Assembly: GCA_024229935.1 (NCBI GenBank)
Contig: JAAERX010000156.1
Span: 1 to 64,000, forward strand
Length of the DNA stretch: 64,000 nt
Origin: Gammaproteobacteria bacterium
Lineage (GTDB): Bacteria; Pseudomonadota; Gammaproteobacteria; Steroidobacterales; GCA-2729495
Reading direction: 5' to 3'
The translations under genes were made by a program, and so were the position numbers. This document shows positions 12,404-37,133 of the stretch, piece by piece. The notes beneath the pieces were generated by a model that had not been told where the DNA came from, searched no databases, and saw only the letters and a program-made list of their open reading frames with translations. Position 1 is the first letter of the stretch. Each line of letters opens with the position of its first letter.

Positions 12404-14113
12404 ATGCGAATCCGCATCTGGTTTAAAATTTTTTTTACTGCGCTGCTACTTCTTGCCGTTGTACGCTGCACGCAGCTATCACCATTACCCAATGCCGATG
12501 TCATTGTTGTTGGAGCCGGAATTTCCGGCCTTGCTGCCGCTATAGAAGCATCTTCACATGGTGCCAGTGTATTAGTAATTGAAGCCAACTCAGTAGGTGG
12601 TGGTCACGCGGTTAAGGCTGGTGGACTGGCCATGGTTGATACAGCCCTTCAAAGGCAACGAGGCATTAAGGATTCACCTGATATTGCCTGGCAGGATCTT
12701 ATGCTATGGGGTGAAGATGCCAACCCCTACTGGACCCGCCGCTACGCTGAGGAATCCTCGGAGCAGGTATATGACTGGTTAACCAAAATCGGTGTCCGGT
12801 TTGCCATGGTACTCGATACTCCGGAAGACACTGTACCTCGGTTTCATTTTACCCGTGGAACAGCAGTGAATGTTGTTGTACCTATGATGCGCAAAGCGTT
12901 ACAGGATCCAAAAATTACTTTTGTCTGGAATACGCGGGTTATTAAACTTACCCGTTCTAACAACATGATTACCGGCATAATAGGTCAGGATGAACGTAAT
13001 GACACAACAACCAGGTTTCATGCCAAGAGTATTATTCTGGCTACCGGGGGCTTTCAGAATAACCTGAAAATGGTTCGTGCCAACTGGCCAGACAGTCATT
13101 TGCTACCCGGAAAACTTTTTAAGGGCGCAGGTCAATATGCAACAGGTGACGGATATCTGCTGGCCAGATGGGCAGGTGCAAAAATGCAGCACATGGACCG
13201 ACAGGTAACATTTTATCAGGGAGTGCCTGATCCACGTAACCATTCTGGAGCAACTGCTTTTTTCGCCCAGAACCCTACTGCTATCTGGCTGGACAACAAT
13301 GGCCGCCGTTTTGTAAATGAATCTGCAAATAGTAAAACAATAGCTGCTGCAGCCAAAAATTTGCGTCCAATGAATTTCTGGATGATCTTTGATGCCAATG
13401 GCAGCCGTCGTTTAGGTATACGTGGCGCGGCCTGGTTAAATAATCAAACTATCCGTAATGAAATTCTGGAAAACACTGTAATTACCAAAAAAGCACTTAA
13501 TCTGAATGAGCTGGCCAAACAAACAGGCATACCCAAACACAATCTTCATGCCTCACTTGAGGTTTGGAACCGCATGCTTGATGTTGGCACTGATTATCAA
13601 TTTGGCCGTTTTACATCAGACAAAGACCTGCAGAATATAAAACCTATCAGTACAGCTCCCTACTATGCACTTCGCGTATACCCTATGACACGCAAAAGTA
13701 TGGGTGGCCCCGCAATTAATATTCACGGACAGATAATCGATGCAATGCAAGTACCCATTCCAGGTTTGTATGCCGCAGGAGAATTAACAGGTGTTGCCGG
13801 CATCAATGGCAGCCATGGTGGTTCTGGCACCTTTTTAGGCCCCTCAGTTCTAACTGGTCGTATTGCCGGTAGCGCTGCTGCCAAGTACAGCAACACCTCA
13901 GTCAACCTTAAGGTACGAGAGCTTGATGAATCAGCAGAAGTGGTGCCTGATTACGGTCTGCCGGGCTACTGGCACTATGACGCCGTCCATAAACTTGTCT
14001 CAGAGCGCGCACAAACTTGTGACAAATGCCATTCTGAACAAATGCCCATGACCATGGCAAATAAACCCGCTCAAATGCTTGCCCAGCTCAGAACCTGTAA
14101 TAACTGTCATTAA
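12404..14113 (+). CDS. Exported FAD-dependent oxidoreductase (fumarate reductase/ketosteroid dehydrogenase fold) with C-terminal di-heme tail
   Basis: Predicted periplasmic flavoenzyme. Residues 1-25 form a signal or anchor sequence (Cys22 is preceded by Arg, so it is not a standard lipobox). The Rossmann FAD motif GAGISG is at 37-42, with VVIEA-like strand end and the GG-x-A-x-AGG region. FAD-binding fumarate-reductase-type motifs continue with ATGGFQNN, RRFVNE, and near the C-terminus the YAAGELTGVAGING and GSGTFLGPSVLTGRIAG segments. The last 31 residues carry two heme c motifs, CDKCH at 539-543 and CNNCH at 565-569, the latter ending exactly at the C-terminus. Shewanella-type flavocytochrome c carries its hemes at the N-terminus, so this order is reversed. 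No strong ribosome-binding site precedes the ATG. Likely couples oxidation or reduction of an unsaturated or keto substrate to cytochromes. Confidence 0.88.
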   Translation: MRIRIWFKIFFTALLLLAVVRCTQLSPLPNADVIVVGAGISGLAAAIEASSHGASVLVIEANSVGGGHAVKAGGLAMVDTALQRQRGIKDSPDIAWQDLMLWGEDANPYWTRRYAEESSEQVYDWLTKIGVRFAMVLDTPEDTVPRFHFTRGTAVNVVVPMMRKALQDPKITFVWNTRVIKLTRSNNMITGIIGQDERNDTTTRFHAKSIILATGGFQNNLKMVRANWPDSHLLPGKLFKGAGQYATGDGYLLARWAGAKMQHMDRQVTFYQGVPDPRNHSGATAFFAQNPTAIWLDNNGRRFVNESANSKTIAAAAKNLRPMNFWMIFDANGSRRLGIRGAAWLNNQTIRNEILENTVITKKALNLNELAKQTGIPKHNLHASLEVWNRMLDVGTDYQFGRFTSDKDLQNIKPISTAPYYALRVYPMTRKSMGGPAINIHGQIIDAMQVPIPGLYAAGELTGVAGINGSHGGSGTFLGPSVLTGRIAGSAAAKYSNTSVNLKVRELDESAEVVPDYGLPGYWHYDAVHKLVSERAQTCDKCHSEQMPMTMANKPAQMLAQLRTCNNCH

Positions 14114-17640: not shown

Positions 17641-18957
17641 ATGACTGATCACCATTCTTTAGAAATAGATCACAACCAAAGACGGCTTGGGCCCATATGG
17701 CTATCGCCCGGCATTCTGCCGCGGAATGTAATTACCCTGTTTTACTCTGGTGCCATGGCGATTGGTTTTATCAATCTTTTAAATCTGATTCAGCCATTAC
17801 TGCTCCAGGAAAATTTGCATATGACTGAAGGTGAAGGAGATTTTACTGCTAATTTATACATTGTACTTGAGATCACCACCCTACTGGTAGCTGCACCGCT
17901 AGCCAACCTCTCAGACCTGATTGGCAGGCGGCCTATTTTTTCCAGCGGTTTCATGCTTGTCTGCATGACCCTGATTATCCTGCCAGCTGCAACAACAGGC
18001 ACAGAACTGATGCTCTTTCGCATAGTGGGCTCAATTGGTGTGGCCTGCTGCACAACCATGATCGCCTCTTTATGCGCAGACTACCCACAAAATGCATCAC
18101 GTGGAAAATTTATCGGCCTAAATGGCATATTTACCGCCTTTGGTGTAATTGCACTTGGCTCCGGCCTGACCCAAATGCCAAAAGTATTTACCAGCATGGG
18201 CTATCTGCCATCTGAAAGCATTAGCTACACACTTTGGATTGGCGGTGGGCTGGCATTTATCACCTCACTTGTCACCTTCACCGGGATAAAAAAAGGTCGT
18301 GCAAGCAGCCATGAAGAGAAGCTGCCTTTTCTTGAGAACGCACAAATTGGTTTAAAGGCTATAAAAAACAGCCCGCGTCTTATGCTTGGCTGTGGTGCAA
18401 CCGCTCTGTCACGTGGCGACCTGACTGTGCTGGCTTCCTTTTTCTCACTGTGGATACAAAAAGCAGGCGCAGACAAAGGCATTGAAGCAGTCACGGCCTC
18501 AGCTACATCAGGCAAATTATTTGGCATGATACAACTGTCCATGCTTTGCTCCATGCCATTTATAGCCATTATGGCTGACCGAGTAGATCGGGTTACCAAT
18601 CTCACCATAGGCATTGCACTGGCTGCAATTGGCTACTTCGCATTAGGGCTCTCCCCTGACCCATTTAATTCAGGGCTTATTTATCTTGTGGTAGTGCTGG
18701 CAGGCATAGGTGAAGCCGCCATGATCATTTCAGTACCTGCACTTATAGGTCAGGAAGCGCCCAGTGCTTTACGTGGCTCCATTATCGGGGTTGCTGCCAC
18801 CTTCGGTGCACTAGGGATCATCGCATCAAATAAGGCCGCAGGGTATTTATTTGATAACTGGGACTATCAGGGGCCATTTCTATTCATGGGCACCCTGAAT
18901 ATATGTATGCTCTTATGGGCTATTAAGGTTCAGGCAACAACACAGACCCCCGCCTAA
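17641..18957 (+). CDS. MFS transporter, paralog of 27239-28564
   Basis: Twelve-helix inner-membrane transporter, 438 residues, with NLSDLIGRRPIF as the loop 2-3 signature. It resembles the MFS protein at 27239-28564 along its length: both have a GPxWLxPG segment before helix 1, FIN(L/F)xQP in helix 1, a conserved ExxLH, DFTANLY/GTVTGYL spacing, a (N/A)SRGK-x-x-GLN-type motif and RGD in helix 7. GGAAGTAG lies just before the ATG. The gene is divergent from the lipoprotein SDR and runs 36 bases ahead of the octaheme cytochrome gene, so it may be the first gene of the 17641-23709 operon. Substrate unknown. Confidence 0.88.
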   Translation: MTDHHSLEIDHNQRRLGPIWLSPGILPRNVITLFYSGAMAIGFINLLNLIQPLLLQENLHMTEGEGDFTANLYIVLEITTLLVAAPLANLSDLIGRRPIFSSGFMLVCMTLIILPAATTGTELMLFRIVGSIGVACCTTMIASLCADYPQNASRGKFIGLNGIFTAFGVIALGSGLTQMPKVFTSMGYLPSESISYTLWIGGGLAFITSLVTFTGIKKGRASSHEEKLPFLENAQIGLKAIKNSPRLMLGCGATALSRGDLTVLASFFSLWIQKAGADKGIEAVTASATSGKLFGMIQLSMLCSMPFIAIMADRVDRVTNLTIGIALAAIGYFALGLSPDPFNSGLIYLVVVLAGIGEAAMIISVPALIGQEAPSALRGSIIGVAATFGALGIIASNKAAGYLFDNWDYQGPFLFMGTLNICMLLWAIKVQATTQTPA

Positions 18958-18993: not shown

Positions 18994-21216
18994 ATGCGGC
19001 CCAAAAAAAGGGTAATTATTTTAAAGCTGGCACTAATATTAACAACTATAGTAATTACTGCCTGTGACAATAGTAATACTTCCAGTGGGCCTTCAAACAG
19101 CCCAATAAAAAAAGATGGTTTTGCAGGAACCACATCCTGTACCAACTGTCATGATACTGAAGCCTCCCTGTGGCGTAATTCCCATCATGACCTCGCCATG
19201 CAGACAGCCACACCCGACACAGCACTTGGTGATTTCAACGCAAGTAAATTTGAGCACAATAATATAACCAGCCAGTTTTTTACCAAGGACAAGGAACTGT
19301 TTGTAGAGACTGACGGCAGTACTGGTCAGTTGGAAGTTTTTCCTGTTCGCTATACTTTTGGTGTATACCCTCTGCAGCAGTATCTTATTGAACTTCCAAA
19401 TAAAAAAATCCAGGCCCTGAGTATTGCCTGGGATAGTCGACCTGCCGCCGAAGGCGGTCAACGATGGTTTCACCTTTATGGAGATGAGCCTATTGACCAT
19501 ACCGATGTATTGCACTGGACCCAACCAAGCCAAAATTGGGAAACAATGTGTGCAGATTGTCATTCAACAAATCTAATCAGTAACTATTCACTACCAGATG
19601 ATCATTTTGAAACCAGCTGGTCAGAATTAAATGTTGGTTGTGAAGCCTGTCATGGCCCGGGTGAAAAGCATACAGTCTGGGCGAATAATAAAAACACAGA
19701 CAATGAAGATAAAGACACCGATAATGGTTTAGAACTGCATTTTACTGAGCGACTGAATGCTAGCTGGATACTTGATTCAGACACAGGTAACAGTCAACGC
19801 AGCACTCCACAAAGCTCAGATGTTGAAATTAATGCCTGTGCTGCATGTCATTCACGCCGTGCACGCATAAGCAATAACACAAATCCTGCAACACCATTTC
19901 TCGACACCTACACACCTACCCTGATTGAACAGCCGCTCTACCATAGTGACGGTCAGATTCTGGATGAAGTATATGTTTATGGCTCATTTCTACAAAGCCG
20001 TATGCATCAGGCAGGGGTAACCTGCAGTGACTGTCATGACCCACACAGCCTGGAGTTACGGGCACCTGGACCAGCTGTATGCCTGCAATGTCATGCCAGT
20101 AATAAGTTCACCACAGCAGAACACCAGTTGCATGATTCCAATGTGGCAAACTGTATTGACTGTCATATGCCCGCAACAACATATATGCAAATAGATTCAC
20201 GCAATGATCACAGCTTCAGGATCCCCAGGCCCGAATTCACCACAACCCATGGCATACCAAATGCATGCAACAACTGTCACAGCGACAAAGACGCAAGCTG
20301 GGCCGCAGCAATACTGAACGATAATGGCCGACTTAATACCACTGACACCCCTCATTGGAGTGAGCTTTTTACCAGTGCAAATCAAATTGATCAGGCCTCA
20401 ATGGAAGCACTGACAAAAATAGCCATAGACCTATCTGTCCCAACTATTATTCGTGCCAGCGCCATCAGTCGATTACGGCTTGGTGACAGCCGCGCAGCTG
20501 AACAGCTCATTAACAGGCTGGTCATCAGTCAGGAGCCCCTCATACGCTGGAGTGCAGCACGAGCTCTACAAAACTCCCACCCTGCTTTAACAGCCAAAAT
20601 CGGGCCGGTACTCTTAAATGACTCCATAAAATCAGTACGCATATCCGCAGCCAGAGCATTAGCAGGCATTGATCCGGTAATGCTGGCACCGGGCACATAT
20701 GCTGATTTACAAACAGGCTTTACTGAATATATTGAGGCCCAGATGGTTCAATCTGAACGTACAGAATCCCATATTAATGTTGCAAATATGCATCGCTTAC
20801 AGGGTCACTTGGATCTTGCGGAACAGGAATATTTAATAGCAATTACCCTAAACCCCAGTTTTGTTCCTGCCTATGTCAATCTTGCCGATCTATACCGTGA
20901 ACAAAATCTAGAACACAAAGCTGAAAAAATATTGCGCAAAGGACTGGAAAGGATTTCAATGCAGGCTGACCTTCAGCATGCTCTTGGCTTATCACTTATC
21001 AGGCAAAAGCGCCTTCCAGAAGCTACAGTAGAGCTTCAACTGGCTGCTGAGTCCTCTGAGGCTACAGCCAGATTTGCACTGGTTTATGCAGTCGCACTAA
21101 ATAGTCAGGGAAAAACCAGTGAAGCCATTAAGGTTCTGGAGAATGCTCTTAGAAAATTCACCCATGACCCTGCACTTATTAATGCTTTTTCTGAATTCAA
21201 TGCACAACTAGAGTAA
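18994..21216 (+). CDS. Octaheme c-type cytochrome lipoprotein with HEAT-like and TPR C-terminal repeats
   Basis: Envelope multiheme cytochrome, 740 residues. The lipobox-like ITAC ends at Cys24. Eight CxxCH heme-binding motifs begin at residues 49, 186, 216, 282, 344, 363, 387 and 425; heme 1 is set apart from the remaining seven. After the heme domain come HEAT-like helical repeats (about 450-570, including IRASAISRLRLGD and IRWSAARALQ) and TPR repeats (about 590-735, NVANMHRLQGHLDLAEQEY, AYVNLADLYREQNLEHKAEK). Multiheme-TPR proteins are known in several bacterial groups, but their partners are mostly undefined. The repeats suggest docking to another protein. AGGAAT lies 9 bases before the ATG. 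Followed closely by the MBL and amine oxidase genes. Needs the Ccm heme-attachment system, not seen here. Confidence 0.92.
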   Translation: MRPKKRVIILKLALILTTIVITACDNSNTSSGPSNSPIKKDGFAGTTSCTNCHDTEASLWRNSHHDLAMQTATPDTALGDFNASKFEHNNITSQFFTKDKELFVETDGSTGQLEVFPVRYTFGVYPLQQYLIELPNKKIQALSIAWDSRPAAEGGQRWFHLYGDEPIDHTDVLHWTQPSQNWETMCADCHSTNLISNYSLPDDHFETSWSELNVGCEACHGPGEKHTVWANNKNTDNEDKDTDNGLELHFTERLNASWILDSDTGNSQRSTPQSSDVEINACAACHSRRARISNNTNPATPFLDTYTPTLIEQPLYHSDGQILDEVYVYGSFLQSRMHQAGVTCSDCHDPHSLELRAPGPAVCLQCHASNKFTTAEHQLHDSNVANCIDCHMPATTYMQIDSRNDHSFRIPRPEFTTTHGIPNACNNCHSDKDASWAAAILNDNGRLNTTDTPHWSELFTSANQIDQASMEALTKIAIDLSVPTIIRASAISRLRLGDSRAAEQLINRLVISQEPLIRWSAARALQNSHPALTAKIGPVLLNDSIKSVRISAARALAGIDPVMLAPGTYADLQTGFTEYIEAQMVQSERTESHINVANMHRLQGHLDLAEQEYLIAITLNPSFVPAYVNLADLYREQNLEHKAEKILRKGLERISMQADLQHALGLSLIRQKRLPEATVELQLAAESSEATARFALVYAVALNSQGKTSEAIKVLENALRKFTHDPALINAFSEFNAQLE

Positions 21217-21236
21217 ATTTCAAGCAGGTAAATTGC

Positions 21237-22190
21237 ATGCTCAAACCACAGCAAATCCCCTTGAGGCTTCTTGCTTCAGCTGCCCTGATAACATTCATGC
21301 TACAGGCCGCCCAGGCACAGTTTGTACCCCCCGGGATTGAACCAATTTCCACGGAAAAACTGGCTGATAACCTTTATGCTTTTCGTTGGGGAGCTTATCG
21401 CAGTATATTTATGGTAACTGCAGCAGGCGTCATTGTGACAGATCCTATTTCTCCCGAAGCTGCCACTGAATACCGAAAAGCCATTGCTCAAATTACTGAC
21501 AAACCAGTTAAATATGTCGTGTATTCACATGCACACTGGGATCACGCAAGAGGTGGCAGTATATTTAAAGATGAAGGTGCGACTTTTATCTCGCAACAAC
21601 GGTGTATTCGTAATTTTAATGATTCACCCAACACCGATATAGTTGCGCCTGATATTACCTTTGACAAAAGCTACAGTGTAGAGCTTGGCGGGCAAGCTCT
21701 TGAGCTCTACTACTTCGGCCCCAGTCATGGAACCTGCCTGATTGTTATGATCCCAAGCCCCCATAAGATGATTTATACGGTTGATATCATGACACCAAGA
21801 CCAGCGGGTGGTGGCTATCTACCATGGGACCCCCAGGTGGCAGATTTTCACTTTTATAATGCCGTTGAATACCTGCAGGCTCTTGAAGCGCTTGTTGATG
21901 AAAAAAATATTAGCACTGTAATTGGCGCTCATCTCGTTCCATTGCCACAAGGTAAAGGAACGTTTTTTGCAGCCTCCAGTACCGGGCCCATTATACAAAT
22001 TACCGAACGCCGTGAATTCTGGGAAAAGCTCATGCAGGCAGTTAAATCAGAAATGGACAGCGGGACAGAAAGTTTCATGGTATCAGCTAAGCTTGATAAG
22101 ACACCATGGGAGAATATTCGTGGTTATAACAAACGAAAGTTTAAGCAACTGGTTGATCGAATAGCTGCCTACTATGCCATCGGCAAATGA
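21237..22190 (+). CDS. Secreted metallo-beta-lactamase-fold hydrolase
   Basis: Periplasmic zinc hydrolase of the MBL superfamily. A Sec signal peptide ends near AQAQ (about residue 28). The metal motif HAHWDH is at 98-103, with a further His in GPSHGTC, an Asp in YTVDIM and a late His in VIGAHLVP, together giving the usual dinuclear site. The sequence resembles the SoxH/quinoprotein-relay-type MBL hydrolases rather than classical beta-lactamases, but substrate cannot be inferred. It begins 20 bases after the octaheme cytochrome and precedes the amine oxidase gene, so all three probably form one transcript. AGCAGG lies about 10 bases ahead of the ATG. Confidence 0.88.
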   Translation: MLKPQQIPLRLLASAALITFMLQAAQAQFVPPGIEPISTEKLADNLYAFRWGAYRSIFMVTAAGVIVTDPISPEAATEYRKAIAQITDKPVKYVVYSHAHWDHARGGSIFKDEGATFISQQRCIRNFNDSPNTDIVAPDITFDKSYSVELGGQALELYYFGPSHGTCLIVMIPSPHKMIYTVDIMTPRPAGGGYLPWDPQVADFHFYNAVEYLQALEALVDEKNISTVIGAHLVPLPQGKGTFFAASSTGPIIQITERREFWEKLMQAVKSEMDSGTESFMVSAKLDKTPWENIRGYNKRKFKQLVDRIAAYYAIGK

Positions 22191-22257
22191 ATACTATTAG
22201 TTAGTCGTTCAGAATTAACCCAATTTATTAAAACTGCATTTTCGGGGTCAGATAAAT

Positions 22258-23709
22258 ATGAACCACTCTACAACTGGCATGAATCGTCGCACCTTATTAA
22301 AAGCCATAAGCAGCATACCCCTCCTTACAGCAGCAGGACCTGTACGAGCACTTAACAAATCTGATGTGATTGTAATAGGCGCAGGACTCTCCGGCTTAAA
22401 TGCCGCACTCTTACTGGAATCTTCTGGAATGAACGTTACAGTTCTTGAGGGCAGAAACCGTATAGGTGGGCGTGTTCAATCATTGCGCAATATTCCTGGC
22501 AACCCTGAGGTTGGAGGGACTGCCTTTGGCCCTGGCTATGCACGCCTGGTAGATGCCGCCAATAAATACGGCGCCGAGCTTATTGATATAACGCCCATCA
22601 TTCCTTATTTTTTCAACCGTCAGATCAATCTGCAAAACCAATTCATTTCAAATGATGAATGGGCAACCAGCCCATTAAACCCATTTCCAGAGCAGTTTAA
22701 AAAGTTGCCGCCATATGGCTACTACAACATCTTAATGGGGTCTATTAACCCTCTCGAAACTACGGATGCGTGGGTTGACCCGGCCAATGCCAAATTCGAC
22801 ATATCCTTACACGACTGGCTAAAGCAAATGGGGCAAACGGATGCGGCAATTGAACTGGCCTATAACACCAACCCTACCCATGGCATGTCAGCTCATGATA
22901 TTTCTGCACTAATGGCTATGCAGTCTGCCTCCTTTGGCGGCATGCAACGAAAACTTGTTGCCAATAACCCAGTTAAAGGATATACCGCCAAGGGCGGCAA
23001 TCAATCTATCCCTGAGGCCATGGCCAATGCACTTAAATCCGAGGTCATACTTAATACGGAAATTATTGGAATCCGCTCTAATGCTGATGGTGTCGAAGTG
23101 CATAGCTCTGATGGCACGATACATCGGGCGCAGCGAGTCATTTCCTCCATGCCCTGTACAACATTACGACGGGTAAAAATTGATCCGGTAATGACAGGCA
23201 AACAGGAATTGGCTGTTCATACCCTGCAATCACAAATTATTAATCAACTCCATTTAATTGCCAAAACCCCCTATTGGGAACAAGATGGAATGAGCCCAAA
23301 TATGTTTACAGATAGTCTGGCCGGCATGGTGATTGCTGAACATAAAGGTGACAAACCTGCAGATGTCACCAGCCTTACTGTTTGGTTGCGTGGTGATCGG
23401 GCTGCATGGGCAGATCAGGTAGATACACAAGTTGCCATCAATGCAGTTGTCGCAGATCTTGAACGTTTACGCCCTGCCGCAAAAGGTCAATTAGAGGTTG
23501 CGGGTTATAAATCATGGTACCGGGATCCCTTCTCATCGGGCGACTGGTCAATCTTTGCACCCGGCCAGGTCACAGCATTTGCAAGTGATATTGCCAACCC
23601 CCATGGACGTCTCCACTTTTGCGGCGAGCATACAGCCGTCTCTAATCGCGGCATGGAAGGCGCAATGGAATCCGGCGAACGAGCCGCTCTTGAGATACTC
23701 AGTGCTTAG
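22258..23709 (+). CDS. Tat-exported flavin monoamine oxidase-like protein
   Basis: FAD-dependent amine oxidase family (MAO/LSD1/polyamine oxidase fold), 483 residues. Begins with a twin-arginine signal NRRTLLKA (Arg10-Arg11) and a hydrophobic stretch ending near AAG. FAD motif GAGLSG at 41-46, followed by VLEGRNRIGGRVQS, which is diagnostic of the family. The C-terminal FAD-contacting segment HFCGEHTAVSNRGMEGAMESG is intact. It is predicted to fold and bind FAD before export, then oxidise an amine or a related hydride donor in the periplasm; electrons could pass to O2 or to the adjacent octaheme cytochrome. Third gene of the cytochrome-MBL-amine oxidase run. Start supported by an ATG 7 codons before the Tat motif. 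Confidence 0.9.
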   Translation: MNHSTTGMNRRTLLKAISSIPLLTAAGPVRALNKSDVIVIGAGLSGLNAALLLESSGMNVTVLEGRNRIGGRVQSLRNIPGNPEVGGTAFGPGYARLVDAANKYGAELIDITPIIPYFFNRQINLQNQFISNDEWATSPLNPFPEQFKKLPPYGYYNILMGSINPLETTDAWVDPANAKFDISLHDWLKQMGQTDAAIELAYNTNPTHGMSAHDISALMAMQSASFGGMQRKLVANNPVKGYTAKGGNQSIPEAMANALKSEVILNTEIIGIRSNADGVEVHSSDGTIHRAQRVISSMPCTTLRRVKIDPVMTGKQELAVHTLQSQIINQLHLIAKTPYWEQDGMSPNMFTDSLAGMVIAEHKGDKPADVTSLTVWLRGDRAAWADQVDTQVAINAVVADLERLRPAAKGQLEVAGYKSWYRDPFSSGDWSIFAPGQVTAFASDIANPHGRLHFCGEHTAVSNRGMEGAMESGERAALEILSA

Positions 23710-23721
23710 TAAGGCATAACA

Positions 23722-24495
23722 TCAGGCGTTTGAGGCTGACTCCACTCGCCTGGTGGCTGGCAAACGAAGCAATAATGGCCTTATAGCAATGGCCACAATT
23801 GCTGTAATGGCAAACGCACCGAGCACAAAGGTCCAGCTCTGTGGCTGAGCTTCAGCACCACCATGTATACCCCATGCCAGAAACAGCACGCCCGAAGAAG
23901 CAGAAGCCGTTGTAAAACCATGCAGCACCTGTGCACCTGTCTTTAACAGGCAGCCAAAGAAATACATTGTCAGCGGCGACAACAATAACTGTATGAAAAT
24001 GACAGGGTCTTCAAATCTCAGGTAGGCAGCCACCATGGATAGCAAGCCCAGCACAGTCAGTGGCAAAAAAATTGCTACCTGCCGGAAATACAACCATGGA
24101 AAAATTGCAATAAAAATAACACTGATCAGTATGGCCAAGATATTATTACCCATACATGCAACCAGAATTGCGCCCTGACTCATGACAATCAACCAGAAAA
24201 ACATGAAGTCGCAAAATCCGGCGCCTTCCGCACTTCCTGTTTCTGCTGTCAGATACCAGCGATCTATAGCATTCTGGCCAATTTCAAAAGCGCTGCCCGC
24301 CATCATTAGCCCGGTGGCAAAGAACATGAAAAGTGGATAATCAGTGCGCATCACAACAAAATCCCAGTGATGTACCAGAGCAGTAATTAGCACAAGGGGC
24401 ACTAGAAGAGCATACAGATGCGCGCCCAGCACCCATATGGCCGTTGGCAGCGGCAGCTGAATATCATTTTGAATATTGTAACTGCTACTCATCAT
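23722..24495 (-). CDS. Polytopic membrane protein of unknown function
   Basis: Not recognised. About 257 residues with seven or eight hydrophobic segments and short polar loops, so an integral inner-membrane protein. The open frame extends to 24633, but the ATG pair at 24495/24492 is preferred: GGAG sits 7-8 bases upstream, and the longer version would add a non-hydrophobic leader overlapping the next gene's upstream region. Notable segments are ALVHHWDFVV, a QNAIDRWYL loop with charged residues and a histidine-containing AWGIHGGAEAQPQ loop near the C-terminus. Converges on the amine oxidase gene with a 12-base gap. Confidence 0.65.
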   Translation of the reverse strand: MMSSSYNIQNDIQLPLPTAIWVLGAHLYALLVPLVLITALVHHWDFVVMRTDYPLFMFFATGLMMAGSAFEIGQNAIDRWYLTAETGSAEGAGFCDFMFFWLIVMSQGAILVACMGNNILAILISVIFIAIFPWLYFRQVAIFLPLTVLGLLSMVAAYLRFEDPVIFIQLLLSPLTMYFFGCLLKTGAQVLHGFTTASASSGVLFLAWGIHGGAEAQPQSWTFVLGAFAITAIVAIAIRPLLLRLPATRRVESASNA

Positions 24496-24676
24496 CAAGC
24501 CCCTCCCATATCCAGAATTGAGTATTCGCCTCTCTAAAAACCATTTATACATGATTGTCCCTCCAGATATAACAGAGGGGCATACATCAGCACTTTGTGG
24601 GCAGGGCTGGACTCCGCCACTCACCTCATACAAAATGCCAAGCCATTTTCTCCGGCAAACACAACAGAGACACGCT

Positions 24677-25918
24677 ATGTCAATGATTAAGCCTTTTCGT
24701 GGACTACGGCCAGCGCCAGGATGTGCTGCCGATGTTGCCGCACCACCCTATGACGTACTGAATACAGCTGAGGCCCGTATTCGGGCAGAGGGTCGTCCAT
24801 GGAGCTTTTTGCATATTTCCAAACCAGAGATTGACCTGCCTGAGGGAACTGACCCTTATTCAGCCGAGGTATACGCAAAAGGTGCTGAAAATCTGCAAAA
24901 ACAGATTAGTGAAAAAATCCTCATGCGGGACCCTGACCCCTGCTACTACGTTTACCGCCTGCGCATGGGCAAGCATATACAGACCGGACTGGTATTTATT
25001 GGCTCTGTTGCCGACTACGATAAAAATAAAATTCGCAAACATGAATTCACTCGCCCAGCAAAAGAGGATGACCGTGTAAGACAAATCACAGCACTTAATG
25101 CCCAAACCGGACCCGTGCTTCTGGCTTATCGAAATAATTCTGAAGTAAACATGATCTTTGCCAGCATTGTGACAAACGAACCAACCTATGACCTGGTTGC
25201 TGATGATGATGTTGCCCACACACTGTGGGTTGTAGATGATCAAGCCAAGATAGACCGACTAACCGGGATCTTTGACTCAATGGCGGCTCTATATATTGCA
25301 GATGGACATCATCGATCTGCATCAGGCTCTCGAGTATCAAAAGCAAAAAACACACAAGAAGGAACGCAGGCTGGTGAAAACTCTTGGGATTACTTCCTGT
25401 GTGTTGCATTCCCGCACAATGAGACACAAATATTTGATTACAACCGTGTCCTGAAAGATCTGAACGGACATACAAAGGATGAGTTACTCGAAAAAATTGC
25501 AGCACACTTTCATATTGAGTGTGCAGATGCACAAGCAAAACCAGATAAACCTGAGAATTTTGGCATGTACCTGAGTGGCCAGTGGTACAAACTTAAGATC
25601 AATGATCAACGTGTACCTAAGGCGGACCCCGTAGCCAGCCTTGATGTCAGCCTGCTTCAGGACAACCTCATTGCACCATTACTTGGCGTAAAAGACCCAC
25701 GCACTGATAATCGCATTGATTTTGTTGGTGGCATACGCGGCCTTGATGAACTTGAACGGCGGGTTGATAGTGGAGAAATGGAAATTGCCTTTGCTCTATA
25801 TCCAACCAGCATGGAGGCACTTTTTGCTGTTGCAGATGCTAATGAGGTAATGCCACCAAAATCCACCTGGTTTGAACCTAAACTTGCAGATGGCCTGATT
25901 TCCCACGTTCTGGATTAG
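24677..25918 (+). CDS. DUF1015 family protein
   Basis: Member of the DUF1015 family (uncharacterised conserved protein), recognised from IKPFRGLRPAPGCAADVAAPPYDVLN at the N-terminus and the central IADGHHRSASGSR motif, plus the LD-x-S-x-LQ-x-x-x-x-x-PLLG segment near the C-terminus. The conserved His-His-Arg of ADGHHR may be catalytic, but the function is not established. The frame is open from 24518, but the ATG at 24677 places the start exactly before the family's conserved N-terminus and gives the usual length of about 413 residues. No signal peptide; cytoplasmic. Confidence 0.88.
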   Translation: MSMIKPFRGLRPAPGCAADVAAPPYDVLNTAEARIRAEGRPWSFLHISKPEIDLPEGTDPYSAEVYAKGAENLQKQISEKILMRDPDPCYYVYRLRMGKHIQTGLVFIGSVADYDKNKIRKHEFTRPAKEDDRVRQITALNAQTGPVLLAYRNNSEVNMIFASIVTNEPTYDLVADDDVAHTLWVVDDQAKIDRLTGIFDSMAALYIADGHHRSASGSRVSKAKNTQEGTQAGENSWDYFLCVAFPHNETQIFDYNRVLKDLNGHTKDELLEKIAAHFHIECADAQAKPDKPENFGMYLSGQWYKLKINDQRVPKADPVASLDVSLLQDNLIAPLLGVKDPRTDNRIDFVGGIRGLDELERRVDSGEMEIAFALYPTSMEALFAVADANEVMPPKSTWFEPKLADGLISHVLD

Positions 25919-25987
25919 CAGTTTTTCAGTTACCGGCCACACTGCGAACCAATATGAGCAGCCCGACACGTTAGAATCTATATCACT

Positions 25988-26734
25988 ATGTCTGAACCTA
26001 CTCCAGAACTGCCCAAGCAATGGATCAAGGGGCTCGTCCCTACGATGAATGACAAGGGCTTCATGTTTGAAGTGCTGGATGAGTATGCAGATGAATTCAT
26101 ACGCAGCTCCAGTACACCTGACAATGAAATGCTGGATATTGGCTGTGCATATGGTGTAGCAACTATCCCCGCACTAAGAAAAGGCGCACGAATCACTGCA
26201 TGTGACATGGATAGACGACATCTTGATATCCTAAAGAGTCGCGCCCCGGAAGATATGCATGACCGCCTTACTTTATTTACAGGCGCCTTACCTGATATAG
26301 ATTTACAGGACAATTACTACAACGCTATTTTATGTTCTCGTGTGCTGCACTTCCTGTCTGGTGATGAAATTGATGCAAGCATACGCAACATGTTCCGCTG
26401 GTTAAAACCCGGGGGGCACCTGTATCTTGTAGCAGATACACCATGGGGAATTTGGCGAAATTTTATCCCAACCTGGGAAAAGAACGTGGCTAACCACGAA
26501 CGTTGGCCTGGCCATATGCCTAAACCTATTAATTTCCTGCCTTACAAGCCCAGCAGCGATGACGTAGGCCCACCCCTGATGAACCTTCTTGACCCCACCT
26601 TATTACGACGCACCTGTGAAGAAGCAGGCTTCATTGTTGATAAAGCAAGCTTTGTTGATCGTAGTGATTTTGGTGACAAGGGAAGAATGGATGGTCGCGA
26701 AAACTGTGGGCTTGCTGCACACAAACCTGACTAA
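25988..26734 (+). CDS. Class I SAM-dependent methyltransferase
   Basis: Rossmann-fold methyltransferase, 248 residues. Motif I MLDIGCAYGVATI binds S-adenosylmethionine, followed by ACDMDRRHLDIL (acidic residue after strand 2), NAILCSRVLHFLSG (motif IV region) and RWLKPGGHLYLVAD (post-motif). This is typical of the methyltransferase type 11/25 group acting on small molecules. No recognition of substrate is possible. Located 69 bases after DUF1015 and 30 bases before the VOC gene on the same strand, so the three may be cotranscribed. No strong ribosome-binding site is seen before the ATG. Confidence 0.88.
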   Translation: MSEPTPELPKQWIKGLVPTMNDKGFMFEVLDEYADEFIRSSSTPDNEMLDIGCAYGVATIPALRKGARITACDMDRRHLDILKSRAPEDMHDRLTLFTGALPDIDLQDNYYNAILCSRVLHFLSGDEIDASIRNMFRWLKPGGHLYLVADTPWGIWRNFIPTWEKNVANHERWPGHMPKPINFLPYKPSSDDVGPPLMNLLDPTLLRRTCEEAGFIVDKASFVDRSDFGDKGRMDGRENCGLAAHKPD

Positions 26735-26764
26735 CGTATTCCAGCTTTAAAGGGCATCTGATTA

Positions 26765-27199
26765 ATGATCAAAGGATTTCACCATGCTGCGATATCAACA
26801 CCTGACCTAAAGCGTTGTATTGAGTTTTATACCCGTATTATCGGTGGTGAAGTTGCCTGGTCCTTTGGCTGGCCAGAGGGAACTCATGAAGCAGATGAGG
26901 TAACAGGGTTGCAGAATTCAGCCGCAGAGGCCGCCATGCTTAAAATTGGTGATAGCTTTCTTGAAGTATTCCAGTTCACTTCACCTGAGCCACAGCCTCA
27001 AGCCGGTGACCGACCTGTTAATAACCATGGCATCACTCATATCTGCCTTGAAGTAGAGAACATACAGGAAGAATATACGCGTCTGCTGGCAGCAGGGGTG
27101 CCGTTTAATTGCCCACCACAAAATCAAGATGGCAGTTCCATGGTATATGGGCGTGACCCAGACGGAAATATCATTGAATTAATTGAATTTACAGCTTAA
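26765..27199 (+). CDS. VOC family protein (glyoxalase/dioxygenase fold)
   Basis: Vicinal oxygen chelate protein of 144 residues, one pair of beta-alpha-beta-beta-beta modules. The first metal-type position is in GFHHAAIST, the second half has GITHICLEVENI and the terminal MVYGRDPDGNIIELIEF motif is characteristic. Could be a glyoxalase-like isomerase, an extradiol-type dioxygenase relative or a metabolite-binding protein; the family does not determine which. Downstream of the methyltransferase by 30 bases. Converges on the MFS gene. Confidence 0.88.
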   Translation: MIKGFHHAAISTPDLKRCIEFYTRIIGGEVAWSFGWPEGTHEADEVTGLQNSAAEAAMLKIGDSFLEVFQFTSPEPQPQAGDRPVNNHGITHICLEVENIQEEYTRLLAAGVPFNCPPQNQDGSSMVYGRDPDGNIIELIEFTA

Positions 27200-27238: not shown

Positions 27239-28564
27239 TTAAGGCTTTGACCTTCCCGAGAGAATAATCAGGATAGCAATCAACACAATAATGGCATTAA
27301 CACCCGCCATCATTGTAAAAGGTGCACCAGGGCCAAAACTATCAAATACCCGTCCACCAAAAAATGTAGCAAATAATATTCCTGTGGTACCCACTAATCC
27401 GAATACACCCACCGATGCACCACGAATTTTAGCTGGAGCCTCCTGTCCAAGTAGTGCATTACCAGCCACAATGGCACTTATTTCACCAATACCAAGAACA
27501 AACGTGGCAGCAAGCATTACCGGCATATCATAAGGATCGCTGACAGTTCCAATCATGTAATAACCAATAGTTGCCAGTGTCATAGCAATACAAAGAGCGA
27601 CAACACGATTAATCCGATCAACAATAATTCCAAATACCGGAGCCCACAACCAGTTAGCAAGAAGTAATGCGCCCAGAGACTGGCCGGCTGCAATAATTGC
27701 CTGCCCGGGATCAACGCCCTGTTCTGCACCAGCACGAACAAACCACAGTGAATAAAATGCACCAATCACTACTATGTCACCACGTGCAGCAAATGCAGAT
27801 GCGTAAGACAGTGCCAACCGGGGACTATCATTTGCAGCCCTTAAGCCTGCAATAAAACCTGCTATAGGTGATTTTCTTGTTTCTACATCTTGATCCTGAA
27901 TAATTCGGCCTTTAAAAAAACCAAAACGGAATATGACTGCTGCAAGTATTGCGATAAAAGCACCAAGCCAATAGGTATAACGTGCCGCCTGCTCAGGGGG
28001 GTACCCCATACCTTCAAAATTACCAGGCAACCTTGCAAGAATAAGAGACACCGTCAGGATCGCAAAGCTTGTTATAAAGCTGTTCAGGCCTCCCCATTTA
28101 CCTCGTGAGACCTCCTGTGGAAAATCCTGCATAGTCGCAATAACCATTACAGATGCAGTAGCAACACCAACCGCAAATATGAGCCGATAAAAATAAAGCT
28201 CTGTAAGTGAGGCTGCTGTGGGGAAGAGCATAAAACCAACGGCCCATATCAGGAAGCCGGTAATAAGCAACATTCGCCGACCACTACGATCTGAGATCGC
28301 ACCCACTACGCCCATAATAATGAGTGCCGTACCTTCATGCAGAAAGTTCAGGTATCCAGTTACTGTTCCTTGTTGCTCAACAGGTATGTGTAGTATTTCT
28401 TCAAGAATATACGGCTGGACAAAGTTGATAAATGTCACAAGTGTGACAAAGGTAAATGAACAAACAAAAAAGGTGCAGGCATTAACACGACTAACACCCG
28501 GAACCAACCAGAAGGGCCCAAATTTAATACCGCTTTGGTCTGGTTCCTGTTGTACCTCAGCCAC
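27239..28564 (-). CDS. MFS transporter, paralog of 17641-18957
   Basis: Twelve-helix inner-membrane transporter of 441 residues with the loop signature GAISDRSGRRMLL. Shares the GPFWLVPG leader, QPYILEEILH helix-1 end, and ARGD segment with the MFS at 17641, so the two arose by duplication. Starts at GTG 28564; AGGGGGA lies 5 bases upstream, while the nearby ATG is out of frame. It lies downstream of the unknown paralog at 28669 but is separated by a terminator. Confidence 0.88.
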   Translation of the reverse strand: MAEVQQEPDQSGIKFGPFWLVPGVSRVNACTFFVCSFTFVTLVTFINFVQPYILEEILHIPVEQQGTVTGYLNFLHEGTALIIMGVVGAISDRSGRRMLLITGFLIWAVGFMLFPTAASLTELYFYRLIFAVGVATASVMVIATMQDFPQEVSRGKWGGLNSFITSFAILTVSLILARLPGNFEGMGYPPEQAARYTYWLGAFIAILAAVIFRFGFFKGRIIQDQDVETRKSPIAGFIAGLRAANDSPRLALSYASAFAARGDIVVIGAFYSLWFVRAGAEQGVDPGQAIIAAGQSLGALLLANWLWAPVFGIIVDRINRVVALCIAMTLATIGYYMIGTVSDPYDMPVMLAATFVLGIGEISAIVAGNALLGQEAPAKIRGASVGVFGLVGTTGILFATFFGGRVFDSFGPGAPFTMMAGVNAIIVLIAILIILSGRSKP

Positions 28565-33126: not shown

Positions 33127-34128
33127 CTATGCAACCTTCACATCAGGGATGTTGAACAGTGATTTCCACTCTCTGGCAATCAGCAGGTCCATTAATTCTG
33201 ATTCCTTACCCGCCTGTTTGCGTTCCATCTCTTCATGCATGGTAATCAACGCCTGATCTACTGCAGGACCAAACAAAGATCGTAAATACTCCATTGGCAC
33301 CCGAGGATCATCTTCATCTACAAAGTTACCTTCTTCATCAAATTTAGGCGGCAAGATAGGTGGCACGTAATACACATTTGCCTCCGTACCAAACTCAGGA
33401 TGCAATGGCAGTGCCACCTTCCACTGATTTACCAGTTTGTCGATAGGGCCATTCTCATCTTCAAGGAAACCAACAAAACGTAATCTACCAGGGCATTGCC
33501 TTGCACATGCCGGTGCGACACCCTCTTCAAGCCTTGGGAAACAAAAGATGCACTTCTGACTCTTGCCCTGCACATAGTTAAAATACACTTTATCGTACGG
33601 GCAGGCCTTGTTACATTCACGAAAGCCCTGACACTTATCCTGATCCACAAGCACAATGCCATCTTCTTCGCGCTTATAAATTGCACGCACCGGACAGGCC
33701 TCCAGACATGCCGGCTTGGTGCAGTGGTTACACAACCGGGGCAGGTAAAAGTGGTAATTATTCGGGTATTCACCACTAGAAGTATCCTCATCCCAGTTTG
33801 CGCCCTTGCCCATCGGCCATTCCTGCTGCAGACGCTTTTCCGTGCCTTCAAAATACACAGCATCAAAATTCAACGGAATTTCCTCACCATGATCTTCTTT
33901 AGGCGGCAGTACACCTGCTTTCAGTGCTGTACCATCTTCATTCCAGCCACCACCACCTTCTTCCCAGTAACGCGGGTAACCTGGACCCGGCTTTGTTTCC
34001 ACGTTGTTCCACAACATGTACTCCTGGCCTGGCTCATCTGTCCATAGTGACTTACATGCAGCAGTACAAGCCTGGCAGCCTATGCACTTGTTTAAGTCGA
34101 TCACCATAGCGACCTGTTTTTGTGTCAT
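33127..34128 (-). CDS. Iron-sulfur beta subunit of a type II DMSO-reductase-family enzyme
   Basis: Electron-transfer subunit of the NarH/DdhB/EbdB/SerB type, 333 residues. Four cysteine groups: CIGCQACTAACK (15-26), CNHCTKPACLEACP, CQGFRECNKACP and CIFCFPRLEEGVAPACARQCPGR. In the third group a Phe stands where NarH has Trp and ordinary ferredoxins have Cys, so this cluster is predicted to be [3Fe-4S]. The other three should be [4Fe-4S]. The segment LWNNVETKPGPGYPRYWE is characteristic of the type II subfamily. No signal peptide, so it would be exported with the Tat-bearing alpha subunit. GAGG lies 8-9 bases before the ATG. No gamma (heme b) or TorD-like chaperone gene is next to it. Confidence 0.93.
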   Translation of the reverse strand: MTQKQVAMVIDLNKCIGCQACTAACKSLWTDEPGQEYMLWNNVETKPGPGYPRYWEEGGGGWNEDGTALKAGVLPPKEDHGEEIPLNFDAVYFEGTEKRLQQEWPMGKGANWDEDTSSGEYPNNYHFYLPRLCNHCTKPACLEACPVRAIYKREEDGIVLVDQDKCQGFRECNKACPYDKVYFNYVQGKSQKCIFCFPRLEEGVAPACARQCPGRLRFVGFLEDENGPIDKLVNQWKVALPLHPEFGTEANVYYVPPILPPKFDEEGNFVDEDDPRVPMEYLRSLFGPAVDQALITMHEEMERKQAGKESELMDLLIAREWKSLFNIPDVKVA

Positions 34129-34212
34129 GCGTCTTGCCTCTATTTAGTGCAGTTTTTGATCCAACGATTTTGGGGCAGGCCCCATGAATGTTTAACCTTC
34201 CTGCGAGTCATT

Positions 34213-34238
34213 TGTAGCGGTTAAAACCGCTCCTGCAA
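34213..34238. repeat. REP-like palindrome between alpha and beta subunit genes
   Basis: The core agcggttaaaaccgct, flanked by TGTA and CCTGCA, resembles the GTAGGAGCGGTT-type repetitive extragenic palindromes of many gammaproteobacteria. It lies in the 158-base spacer between the molybdoenzyme alpha and beta genes. Only one copy was noticed in this window. It may tune the alpha-to-beta expression ratio. Confidence 0.5.
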
Positions 34239-34286
34239 CAACCACTCATTAAAGTGATTAAAACTATTTGTGTAAAAATTTTCCAA

Positions 34287-37037
34287 TCAGGCATCACCCT
34301 GATAACGCTCATACTCTACGGTGCAATCGTGATATGTCTGATTAGGCACAAAGTCCGGCGTCTGATAGCGCAAGTGACCGTAATCACCAACCATTTGCAC
34401 CGGTTTTAATAAGCCATTGGTTGAAATCACCGAACTGAAGTTTTTGCGGCCACGGAACATCATCGGATCCCAGCCATGGTACATGAACATTGTATTTGGC
34501 TGCAGACCTGGACTTACATGGGCCATCGCCACAAAATCGCCAAAATCATTGTAAATACGAATAAGATCACCATCTTCAATGCCGCGTGCGGCTGCATCAT
34601 CAGGATTGATATAGATATCTGGTTCACCACGTTGCAAGCTCAAAAGCAGCGAATCATCACGTGTCCAACTGTGGACACCATGACGAGCATGCCCCATTAT
34701 CATGCGCACTCCAAAGCCCTTATTACTCATCGGCCCTTTGTACACGGGCATTGCTTCACCTTCTGACAAGAACCAGTCCTGATCCAGATAAAACTGCTGG
34801 CGGCCAGTCAGTGTCTTCCAGGGATGTTTATCACGGGTACTCGCAAGCGTCTCATAGTTATATGCCGACTTCGGCCCAAACTGCACATTATCTGAATCAT
34901 CTACACGAATAATGCCTTTCTTGGAAAACTCTTCCCAACTGGTATTGGGGATGCCTACTGAATTCTCCAGCATAAACTCCACCAGTTGAGTAGGTTCTTC
35001 AATCTGACCATTCATCGTGAACTGTTCGTAGGCCGTAGCATAGTCACGCTCAATCGGCTGACCAAACATGTTGTCCTGTATCGGAGCTATGCCGCGTTCT
35101 TTGGCACGCTCAGAAATTTTCTTAATTAGTGCACGCTGAGCCTTCCAATCCGGCAACGCCTCACCAAGTGGGGGAACAGCTTGATCAATAACCTGAACAT
35201 AAGGCGTACGCCCCTCCATGGTCATGTCCTGAATCTCATAGTGATGTGCAATAGGCAACACAATGTCACAAGACAATGCTGTTGAACTCATATCCGGAGT
35301 CATCGCCACCAATAACTCCACTTCCGACATCATGGATTCACGCCATGCCTCACCAGTAGAGCGCCAGCTGGCCGGGTTATGGCCAGCCATAAGCGCCATG
35401 CGCCATGGCTTACGGGAGTAATCTGGCAGCCAGCGTTTCTGAAGCGCCTGCTGATAATGCTTCTCAACATGCTCAGCATATTCCTTACCGTATACACGCT
35501 CATTGTTTTCTTTGCCGCCCGCTTTGGAGTAATCCCAAACTGATAAGGCAGCAATACGTAAGCGTGGACCAAGTCCTGCAAACACATAAGCAAAAATACC
35601 ATCGGCTTTTGATAATTGCGTTGTCTGCACACCGCCACCTTCACGACCGGTATTACCCGTAAGTGCACACATCAACAGCCAGGAGCGCAGTATCAGGTCA
35701 CCGTGCAACCATTTGTTAGCCCGATAACCCGCATAAATCATGCCCGGTCCCTGCTGAGAAAACTTACGGGCAACGTAACGGGTTACATCCGCACTTACCC
35801 CGGTAATATCTGCAACCTTCTCCGGCGTGTAGTTCTCCATTTCCTGTTTGACAAATGCAAATACGGTCGTTACTTCAACAGGCCCTGCAACCGTTTCCAC
35901 AATCCAGGTGCCTTCAACAGCAGGTGTAATTCCCTCTAGCAACAATGACTCTGGTTCTTTTTCAGGTTGTGGTGGGCCAAAAGGATTTACAAAACCGGTT
36001 CCTGGTGCCGCTACAACCTGCTGGCTGGCCTCATCCCAGAAATAGAAACCATCTTCTCTGCCACCTTCCTGCAAATCAGATTCTCGCAGAAATTTCTGAT
36101 TGTCTGCACGCACAAGAAACGGCATATCAGTCTGTTCACGTACATAATCCCAATCAATCAGATCCTCAGCAATCATGGTATGCACCATACCCAATGCCAG
36201 TGCTGCATCTGTTCCAGGCTCAACATTTACCCACTTGGATGAACGTAGCGCAGTCGGGCTAAAATCCGGTGAAATACAAATTATTTCAGTACCGTTATAA
36301 CGAGCCTCCCAGAAGAAATGAGCGTCCGGAATACGTGTAGCCGCAGGATTGCATGCCCAGATAATGCAGGTCCTGGATTTAAATACTGCCGGCATACTAT
36401 CGCCTGGCAGAGGATGGCCAATTGTCATATTGGCGCCAACCGGCAAGTCACCCACGCCGGCAAAAGTTTCAGGAATCACCACACCTGTGATGTTTGCAAA
36501 ACGGAACAGACCGGCAAAGCCGCCCCGCTTAAGAATCATCGCAGTGCCCATCGCATACGTTATGGATTCAGGGCCATCCTCAGTAACAATATCCAAGAAC
36601 TTATCTGCGACTTCTGTTAATGCATCATCCCAACTAATACGTATCCATTTACCTTCACCACGCTCACCCGCACGTTTCATTGGATATAGCACACGTTGCT
36701 TGCCATACATGTATTTGGACTGGCGCAGGCCTTTCTGACAGCCACGTGGGCCAAAATCTGGCGTATCCTCACCCTGATAACCGTATTCGCCCTGCTGCTC
36801 CTCGCGCCAGACGATGCCATTTCGAACATAGATATTAAATGCACAGTGACCTGTGCAATTAAGGCCACGACTGCCTCGTACAACCCGGTCCCAAGTCCAT
36901 TTATTACGCATGATGTCTTCCCAGCGCCGATACTGCTGGGTATGACTGGCTGCGCCAACCGTACCAAATTTCAATGACAAGGCCATTGCGCCCGTGCCGG
37001 AAAGAAAGTTACGCCGGTTCGTGGTGGTCAAGGTCAT
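34287..37037 (-). CDS. Tat-exported molybdopterin oxidoreductase alpha subunit, type II DMSO reductase family
   Basis: Catalytic subunit of 916 residues carrying the Mo-bis-MGD cofactor. Twin-arginine signal NRRNFLSG at 7-14. N-terminal iron-sulfur region GLNCTGHCAFNIYVRNG with Cys61, Cys65 and Cys100 (RGCQKG). Arg57 stands where NarG has its cluster-ligating His, so the FS0 site may be altered; His64 is nearby. Asp197 in GVGDLP matches the Mo-ligating Asp of the type II clade (NarG, EbdA, DdhA, SerA). The block DAHFFWEARYNGTEII ... VNVEPGTDAALALG is close to NarG. The C-terminal MopB-type domain has GHARHGVHSWTRDD. Paired with the beta subunit downstream. Members of this clade reduce nitrate, selenate or chlorate, or hydroxylate hydrocarbons; the reaction here is not determined. 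Confidence 0.93.
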   Translation of the reverse strand: MTLTTTNRRNFLSGTGAMALSLKFGTVGAASHTQQYRRWEDIMRNKWTWDRVVRGSRGLNCTGHCAFNIYVRNGIVWREEQQGEYGYQGEDTPDFGPRGCQKGLRQSKYMYGKQRVLYPMKRAGERGEGKWIRISWDDALTEVADKFLDIVTEDGPESITYAMGTAMILKRGGFAGLFRFANITGVVIPETFAGVGDLPVGANMTIGHPLPGDSMPAVFKSRTCIIWACNPAATRIPDAHFFWEARYNGTEIICISPDFSPTALRSSKWVNVEPGTDAALALGMVHTMIAEDLIDWDYVREQTDMPFLVRADNQKFLRESDLQEGGREDGFYFWDEASQQVVAAPGTGFVNPFGPPQPEKEPESLLLEGITPAVEGTWIVETVAGPVEVTTVFAFVKQEMENYTPEKVADITGVSADVTRYVARKFSQQGPGMIYAGYRANKWLHGDLILRSWLLMCALTGNTGREGGGVQTTQLSKADGIFAYVFAGLGPRLRIAALSVWDYSKAGGKENNERVYGKEYAEHVEKHYQQALQKRWLPDYSRKPWRMALMAGHNPASWRSTGEAWRESMMSEVELLVAMTPDMSSTALSCDIVLPIAHHYEIQDMTMEGRTPYVQVIDQAVPPLGEALPDWKAQRALIKKISERAKERGIAPIQDNMFGQPIERDYATAYEQFTMNGQIEEPTQLVEFMLENSVGIPNTSWEEFSKKGIIRVDDSDNVQFGPKSAYNYETLASTRDKHPWKTLTGRQQFYLDQDWFLSEGEAMPVYKGPMSNKGFGVRMIMGHARHGVHSWTRDDSLLLSLQRGEPDIYINPDDAAARGIEDGDLIRIYNDFGDFVAMAHVSPGLQPNTMFMYHGWDPMMFRGRKNFSSVISTNGLLKPVQMVGDYGHLRYQTPDFVPNQTYHDCTVEYERYQGDA

Positions 37038-37133
37038 CTACTTATACTCCACAGATATACAACCTGCTGCCAATAAAATAATTCCGGACACAAAAATTAC
37101 ACCATTCACCTTGCAAGAGTAAGTATTATTACC

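Follow-up and report, generated by a model that had tools for sequence, protein, structure and literature searches.

An octaheme cytochrome gene in a transporter, hydrolase and flavoprotein gene run of a gammaproteobacterial genome

The locus and its products

The stretch considered here, hereafter the window, comprises 64,000 nucleotides of a draft gammaproteobacterial genome (assembly GCA_024229935.1, contig JAAERX010000156.1, positions 1 to 64,000 of the forward strand). Within it we analysed three consecutive genes, encoding an octaheme cytochrome (CYT), a metallo-hydrolase (MBL) and a twin-arginine translocation (Tat)-type flavin adenine dinucleotide (FAD) protein (AO). The initial annotation had them in this order, separated by 20 and 67 bases, and the open reading frames (ORFs) indeed lie at 18994-21216, 21237-22190 and 22258-23709, all on the + strand. 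A gene for a major facilitator superfamily (MFS) transporter of 438 aa (17641-18957, + strand; Pfam MFS_1, E 3e-34) ends 36 bases upstream of CYT, so that a transcript may hold four genes, MFS included. No terminator-like site was listed on the + strand between 17400 and 24700, a weak sign since the same scan gave fewer sites than shuffled sequence. We found no described system with this exact trio in the open-licence literature, in line with what had been stated at the outset.

CYT (740 aa) is a lipoprotein-like c-type cytochrome with Pfam cytochrome matches and exactly eight CxxCH motifs, at residues 49, 186, 216, 282, 344, 363, 387 and 425, which bears out both the heme sites and the repeats first ascribed to it: TPR is above the Pfam cut-offs and HEAT below its cut-off. 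In the heme domain, which spans residues 43-446 (19120-20331), a beta-strand region (at about residues 84-160) separates heme 1 from hemes 2 to 8. Helical repeats, first HEAT-like and then of the TPR kind, come after it (about residues 456-740; 20359-21213) and are seen as helices in the predicted model, with TPR fold matches to residues 587-740 at Z up to 21.5. At the N-terminus there is a lipobox-like ITAC-D, judged by eye and not by a signal-peptide program; the Asp after the Cys would presumably favour the inner membrane, if the E. coli rule holds here.

MBL (317 aa) has the metallo-beta-lactamase fold, with Pfam Lactamase_B above cut-off and intact HAHWDH, GPSHG and GAH motifs (the HxHxDH motif and further His ligands are present), and its initial description as an MBL hydrolase was upheld. 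A Sec-type signal, read by eye, suggests that it is exported. Tandem pairs of MBL relatives are found in two other genomes (G008 and G027; L206:3960-5964 and L182:1413-3370), with one copy of each pair devoid of the metal motif and SSSFFDR or SNSFFER standing where SHSHWDH is expected.

AO (483 aa) matches Pfam Amino_oxidase at E 2e-47 over residues 44-481 and starts MNHSTTGMNRRTLLK. Its Tat-like motif NRRTLLK includes R10 and R11, invariant in all ten aligned orthologues, as is the dinucleotide-binding motif GAGLSG near the N-terminus, and the motif points to export by the Tat pathway.

Co-location and origin of the cytochrome gene

The family of the window's genome was surveyed in 40 genomes, its own included, at cut-offs of E<=1e-30 for CYT, E<=1e-60 for MBL and E<=1e-140 for AO. 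CYT was found in 23 of them, MBL in 19 and AO in 36, with one AO per genome. The presence of CYT and that of AO are unrelated (20 genomes with both, three with CYT only, 16 with AO only and one with neither; Fisher p 0.62). Of the 20 genomes with both, only the window's own has the two within 20 kb. Of the 18 genomes with MBL and AO, four have the two less than 20 kb apart, in every case as adjacent genes and in every case within the window's genus (the window's own genome, G002, G003 and G004), so that four out of five genus members show this adjacency. In G002 the order is MFS-MBL-AO without a cytochrome gene in between, G003 and G004 have MBL-AO, and G001 has MFS-X-AO, where X is a 595-residue protein with no Pfam match. 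This adjacency, along with the export motifs, makes the part of the initial annotation that paired an exported flavoprotein with a hydrolase a reasonable one; its "amine" qualifier is doubtful for the reasons given below.

The same survey goes against the trio as a conserved system. Co-occurrence in related genomes was what the initial annotation had proposed to look for, and the trio was found in one family genome of 40, the window's own, and in none of 80 CYT loci of other species. These 80 are the best of 438 confirmed matches beyond the window's family, with flanks that do not exceed 8 kb and in many cases fall short of it, and none of them presented an MBL or AO match at E<=1e-8.

The phylogeny of the cytochrome places the window copy among those of its family. 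In a tree of 102 CYT sequences, built by a quick method with support from the Shimodaira-Hasegawa-like approximate likelihood ratio test (SH-aLRT) only and leaving out L024 and the fragments L031-L035, it belongs to a clade of 14 rows of family members (SH-aLRT 100; the rows L036 and L037 are identical to those of G018 and G005). The other members of this clade are not beside MBL or AO. The CYT gene of the genus member G004 (L212:7839-10148) falls in a different, distant clade and adjoins a sulfatase and a phosphodiesterase-like gene. Given these two placements, the window CYT is most simply seen as a family gene that was moved to, or inserted in, the space between MFS and MBL.

A join made by assembly or binning would also give a trio confined to one genome, and the genome is a draft in 189 contigs. 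The neighbouring genes are intact at both junctions and the gaps short, the GC content of the CYT gene (0.449) differs little from that of the window (0.462) and of eight genes close by (0.453-0.480), and the tree places CYT in the family's own clade, all of which makes such an artefact very improbable.

The reading we consider probable is that an MFS-MBL-AO module of the genus has, in one genome so far, received an independently inherited octaheme-HEAT-TPR cytochrome gene of the family. Its grounds are the gene order, the pattern of conservation, the family relation of CYT and the residue losses in AO described in the next section. Several observations weigh against it. CYT fragments in G015, G017 and G021 were below cut-off and scored as absent. 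CYT and MBL lie within 20 kb in 3/13 genomes, and while these genes are adjacent in the window's genome, G009 and G016 carry CYT and a close MBL homologue on a shared contig 17.3 and 15.3 kb apart, respectively. Across the family the co-occurrence of MBL and AO is not significant (Fisher p 0.61), so the module is a feature of the genus only; co-occurrence tests have little power, AO being present in almost every genome, and many genomes are fragmented, so that distances are known only within a shared contig. The next gene after AO in the window (23722-24633) has relatives, at 33-34% identity, adjoining CYT in G022 (L014:3822-4574) and a fragment of CYT in G017 (L035:505-1302), a faint second link between the two neighbourhoods. 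Five genus members were examined, so the arrangement may extend beyond the lineage described here. An insertion can be functional even when new, and the gaps of 36 and 20 bases around CYT suggest co-expression.

Protein X (about 600 aa; L196:7833-9620; G000:C48:44957-46660), which takes the place of MBL in G001, stands directly before MBL in G023 and lies within 20 kb of AO in 7/22 family genomes with both, compared with 1/20 for CYT.

Beyond the window's family the cytochrome is very widespread and nearly always has eight hemes. Over 102 homologous loci, a few of which are duplicates of one gene, eight motifs were counted in 98 (77 of 80 and 21 of 22) and seven in the other four, and this retention indicates that the eight motifs are not there by chance. 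A sulfatase gene is in reach in 34/80 of the loci (L036-L115, the best 80 of 438) and in 18 of the 33 loci longer than 17 kb, compared with 0/21 control regions around AO, MBL or MFS in the window's family, a control unmatched for host. Such ORFs were clustered, 29 in all (28 in the 80 loci, one at L212:6081-7718), and Pfam identified each of the 16 submitted to it as a sulfatase or part of one. CTAGR takes the place of CxPxR in 13 of the 29, some of these ORFs being cut by contig ends or given wrong starts. Sulfatases are present in 34/36 family relatives (48 of the 60 genomes searched; E<=1e-20), hence their presence is uninformative and adjacency alone is informative. Around CYT in the Dyella loci, and in a small number of further ones, genes for VWA and BatD proteins are found (of those at L070, three were scanned with Pfam).

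Within the window's own clade, eleven loci were mapped (L036, L037, L186, L200, L201, L205, L209, L210, L211, L214 and L215), and in all of them the three genes closest to CYT on each side include no sulfatase; the role of the family may thus differ between clades. The open-licence literature returned no described function for this octaheme-HEAT-TPR cytochrome family.

The flavoprotein and its electron acceptor

AO is a member of the flavin amine oxidoreductase superfamily, and to this extent its original naming as an FAD amine oxidase is confirmed. The best solved-structure relatives of its profile are MAO-B (E 7.6e-42) and putrescine oxidase (E 9.1e-38). In MAO-B, K296 is beside the flavin N5, C397 is the Cys that holds the flavin covalently, and Y398 and Y435 are the two tyrosines of the aromatic cage. 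In the alignment with AO, Q330 is found at the position of K296, D429 at that of C397 and W430 at that of Y398, and Y435 faces a gap; all three hallmarks of a canonical MAO-type amine oxidase are therefore absent, and AO does not qualify as one.

The loss of the lysine is shared by its orthologues: the column holds Q, M, L or I in all 27 other genomes and K in none (30 rows, of which L188, L189 and L190 repeat genomes; L167 and L170 of the 29 orthologue loci and the own-genome loci L002-L004 were excluded). More distant relatives have Q, D, E, S or M and, once, K (L217, a 33%-identical paralog); in this comparison the match to L002, of 38 residues, was not usable, and L003 and L004 dropped out. 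The K kept by L217 indicates that the column is correctly placed, and the MAO-B alignment concurs. Judged from these residue losses, the label "amine oxidase" is open to doubt, and AO is likelier to be a dehydrogenase that is not an oxidase.

Which acceptor AO would use is a matter on which the superfamily offers guidance. According to a study on these enzymes (PMC12224317), cytochrome-using dehydrogenases can be predicted from a Tat signal combined with an operon-borne cytochrome gene, the partners described being cytochromes of the monoheme class I or diheme c4 kind, whereas members that have a Tat signal and no nearby cytochrome react fast with O2. The same study describes the N5 lysine as an aid to the O2 reaction that is nearly universal in the superfamily, with Glu in a few members, and ties the Lys-to-Glu change to the lowest O2 rate measured (PMC12224317).

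For AO the two signs disagree. By the lysine sign the enzyme is likely to be slow with O2; the neighbourhoods of its orthologues, which mostly have no cytochrome gene, point rather to an oxidase. Among 14 AO regions, an octaheme cytochrome gene was found within 6 kb of AO in none, genes with two CxxCH motifs in three and no CxxCH gene at all in 11; a DUF1015 gene lies within 6 kb downstream in 11/14. An O2-using periplasmic oxidase in no need of a cytochrome, a proposal that concerns the AO step only and is compatible with the insertion history, would fit these 11 regions and the fast O2 reaction of comparable Tat members. It is at odds with the replacement of the O2-speeding lysine in AO and in all 27 other genomes and with the low rate of the Lys-to-Glu member, and since we give the lysine more weight we regard such an oxidase as decidedly unlikely. 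The single-copy AO of 36/40 family genomes would rather be a non-oxidase, as the loss of the lysine predicts, and its electron acceptor is probably encoded elsewhere.

The initial annotation had the flavoprotein feeding the cytochrome: AO would oxidise a substrate, its electrons would pass to CYT, MBL would process the product and one transcript would encode them all. For the electron step there is experimental precedent in Tat flavoproteins of this superfamily that deliver to a cytochrome c (PMC12224317), and the window offers that signpost, genes for a Tat FAD enzyme and a c-type cytochrome lying in the same run, along with the absent O2-promoting lysine and the short intergenic gaps. Conservation gives the step no such backing: in none of the 19 other family genomes with both do CYT and AO share a contig at a distance of 20 kb or less, AO is present in 16/17 genomes without CYT, and CYT in 3/4 without AO. 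Moreover, the MBL gene separates CYT from AO, and the partners described are monoheme or diheme cytochromes, not octaheme ones. We hold a functional trio to be rather unlikely, and the initial interpretation as a whole to be partly supported. The tight spacing of genes in a single genome is weak evidence of a pathway; the trio as a system is probably local, and its parts are of more interest.

If the cytochrome gene was instead placed in an existing module, as we prefer, the proteins may act as follows. The MFS protein would move a substrate, which AO, or a product of which AO, would probably dehydrogenate in the periplasm, the substrate being a small organic compound by analogy with the family; MBL, again by family, would probably hydrolyse a related ester, lactone or thioester. 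Without the O2-promoting lysine, the reduced FAD of AO would probably be reoxidised by a carrier, e.g., cytochrome c or a quinone. CYT would most likely retain the role of its relatives in many hosts, that of a membrane-anchored carrier of electrons or a reductase of the OcwA/MccA type with its TPR repeats as a docking arm; it is perhaps co-expressed in this genome and more likely a passenger.

A variant that we deem unlikely is that the insertion made a working pair, in which the lysine-less Tat AO would pass electrons to a membrane-anchored, TPR-docked octaheme CYT of the OcwA/MccA type. If true, it would couple a flavin amine oxidoreductase to a multiheme conduit in place of a mono- or diheme cytochrome, a coupling of which we found no case in the open-licence literature, and would capture an operon early in its assembly.

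Other genes of the window deserve mention. An FAD_binding_2 flavoprotein at 12404-14113 has two C-terminal CxxCH motifs (flavocytochrome-like) and recurs in this island in each of the four genus relatives that were mapped (L196-L199). Downstream of AO, DUF1015, methyltransferase and VOC-type genes occupy 24518-27199, followed by a second MFS transporter gene (27239-28564) related to the one at 17641-18957. The latter has eight matches in the genome at E<=1e-60, and its best curated relatives, below cut-off, are the magnetosome transporters MamH and MamZ. A block at 33127-38207 encodes a molybdopterin oxidoreductase, its Fe-S partner and a nitrilase-family protein, and is also found near AO in G017 and G022.

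The heme domain and the closest known systems

The full-length CYT model has a predicted local distance difference test (pLDDT) score of 86. Foldseek and VIA-align searches with the whole protein returned TPR and similar helical-repeat proteins, and the heme domain was for this reason modelled (pLDDT 83) and searched separately. The best sequence match of its profile is the nonaheme cytochrome OcwA (6i5b; E 3e-20), which the predicted structure also resembles (Foldseek E 2.8e-09; VIA Z 12.0 over 311 residues at a root mean square deviation (rmsd) of 5.8, a large value, for the model range 1-404 and with no hemes in the model). An undecaheme cytochrome gave Z 8.9 (rmsd 3.2, 138 residues), and the octaheme sulfite reductase MccA (4rkm) gave Z 4.4-4.6 along with a weak sequence match (E 8.7e-05).

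With OcwA hemes numbered from the motifs in the printed alignment, the first three CYT hemes face OcwA hemes 1-3 and the last four (5-8) face hemes 6-9; CYT heme 4 also finds a partner, in a stretch of low score, and OcwA heme 5 has no counterpart. As described in the OcwA report (PMC6703420), OcwA hemes 1-4 and 6-9 superpose on the MccA core, with heme 2 as the active site, and heme 5 is a second active site. CYT would accordingly be an eight-heme core minus the NrfA-type site.

In an alignment of 46 CYT sequences (the window's and 45 of the 80 listed loci; L060 was removed for an internal stop), no conserved Cys was seen outside the eight CxxCH motifs. Eight His outside the motifs (H65, H160, H174, H226, H351, H377, H380 and H406) are kept in at least 85% of the sequences, and would suffice to ligate all CYT hemes, or all but one; this would suit a wire and an enzyme alike. 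By sequence and model, CYT is a member of a widespread octaheme family nearest to OcwA, with the heme register and fold of OcwA/MccA/NrfA-type multiheme proteins.

Several described systems come close to parts of this locus. MAO-B and putrescine oxidase are the nearest solved structures to the AO profile, and MAO-B differs from AO at each of the four positions compared (K296, C397, Y398 and Y435 against Q330, D429, W430 and a gap). The NicA2/Pnao/CycN system of Pseudomonas putida S16 is like the AO locus in that a Tat FAD protein of the same superfamily is encoded near a c-type cytochrome gene, and NicA2/Pnao and AO would be alike in probably being slow with O2. In the window the cytochrome gene is present in the run, but with MBL in between, and it is not conserved beside AO. 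The partner cytochromes of the described system are small (monoheme class I; in another clade, diheme c4), whereas the one in the window is octaheme and has repeats, and both NicA2 (K340) and Pnao keep the N5 lysine that AO has lost (PMC12224317).

For CYT the comparison is with two multiheme enzymes. MccA uses Cys for its copper site; CYT has eight hemes as MccA does, and we rejected membership of the MccA group because the sequence and fold matches are weak and there is no conserved extra Cys, which leaves CYT with no Cys-held copper site. OcwA, a cell-surface reductase of Thermincola potens, gives the best match of the heme domain in sequence and fold alike, and differs in having nine hemes, including the heme 5 that is unmatched in CYT. 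CYT in turn is set apart from OcwA by the HEAT/TPR repeats that follow its heme domain, by its lipoprotein-like N-terminus and by its gammaproteobacterial family.

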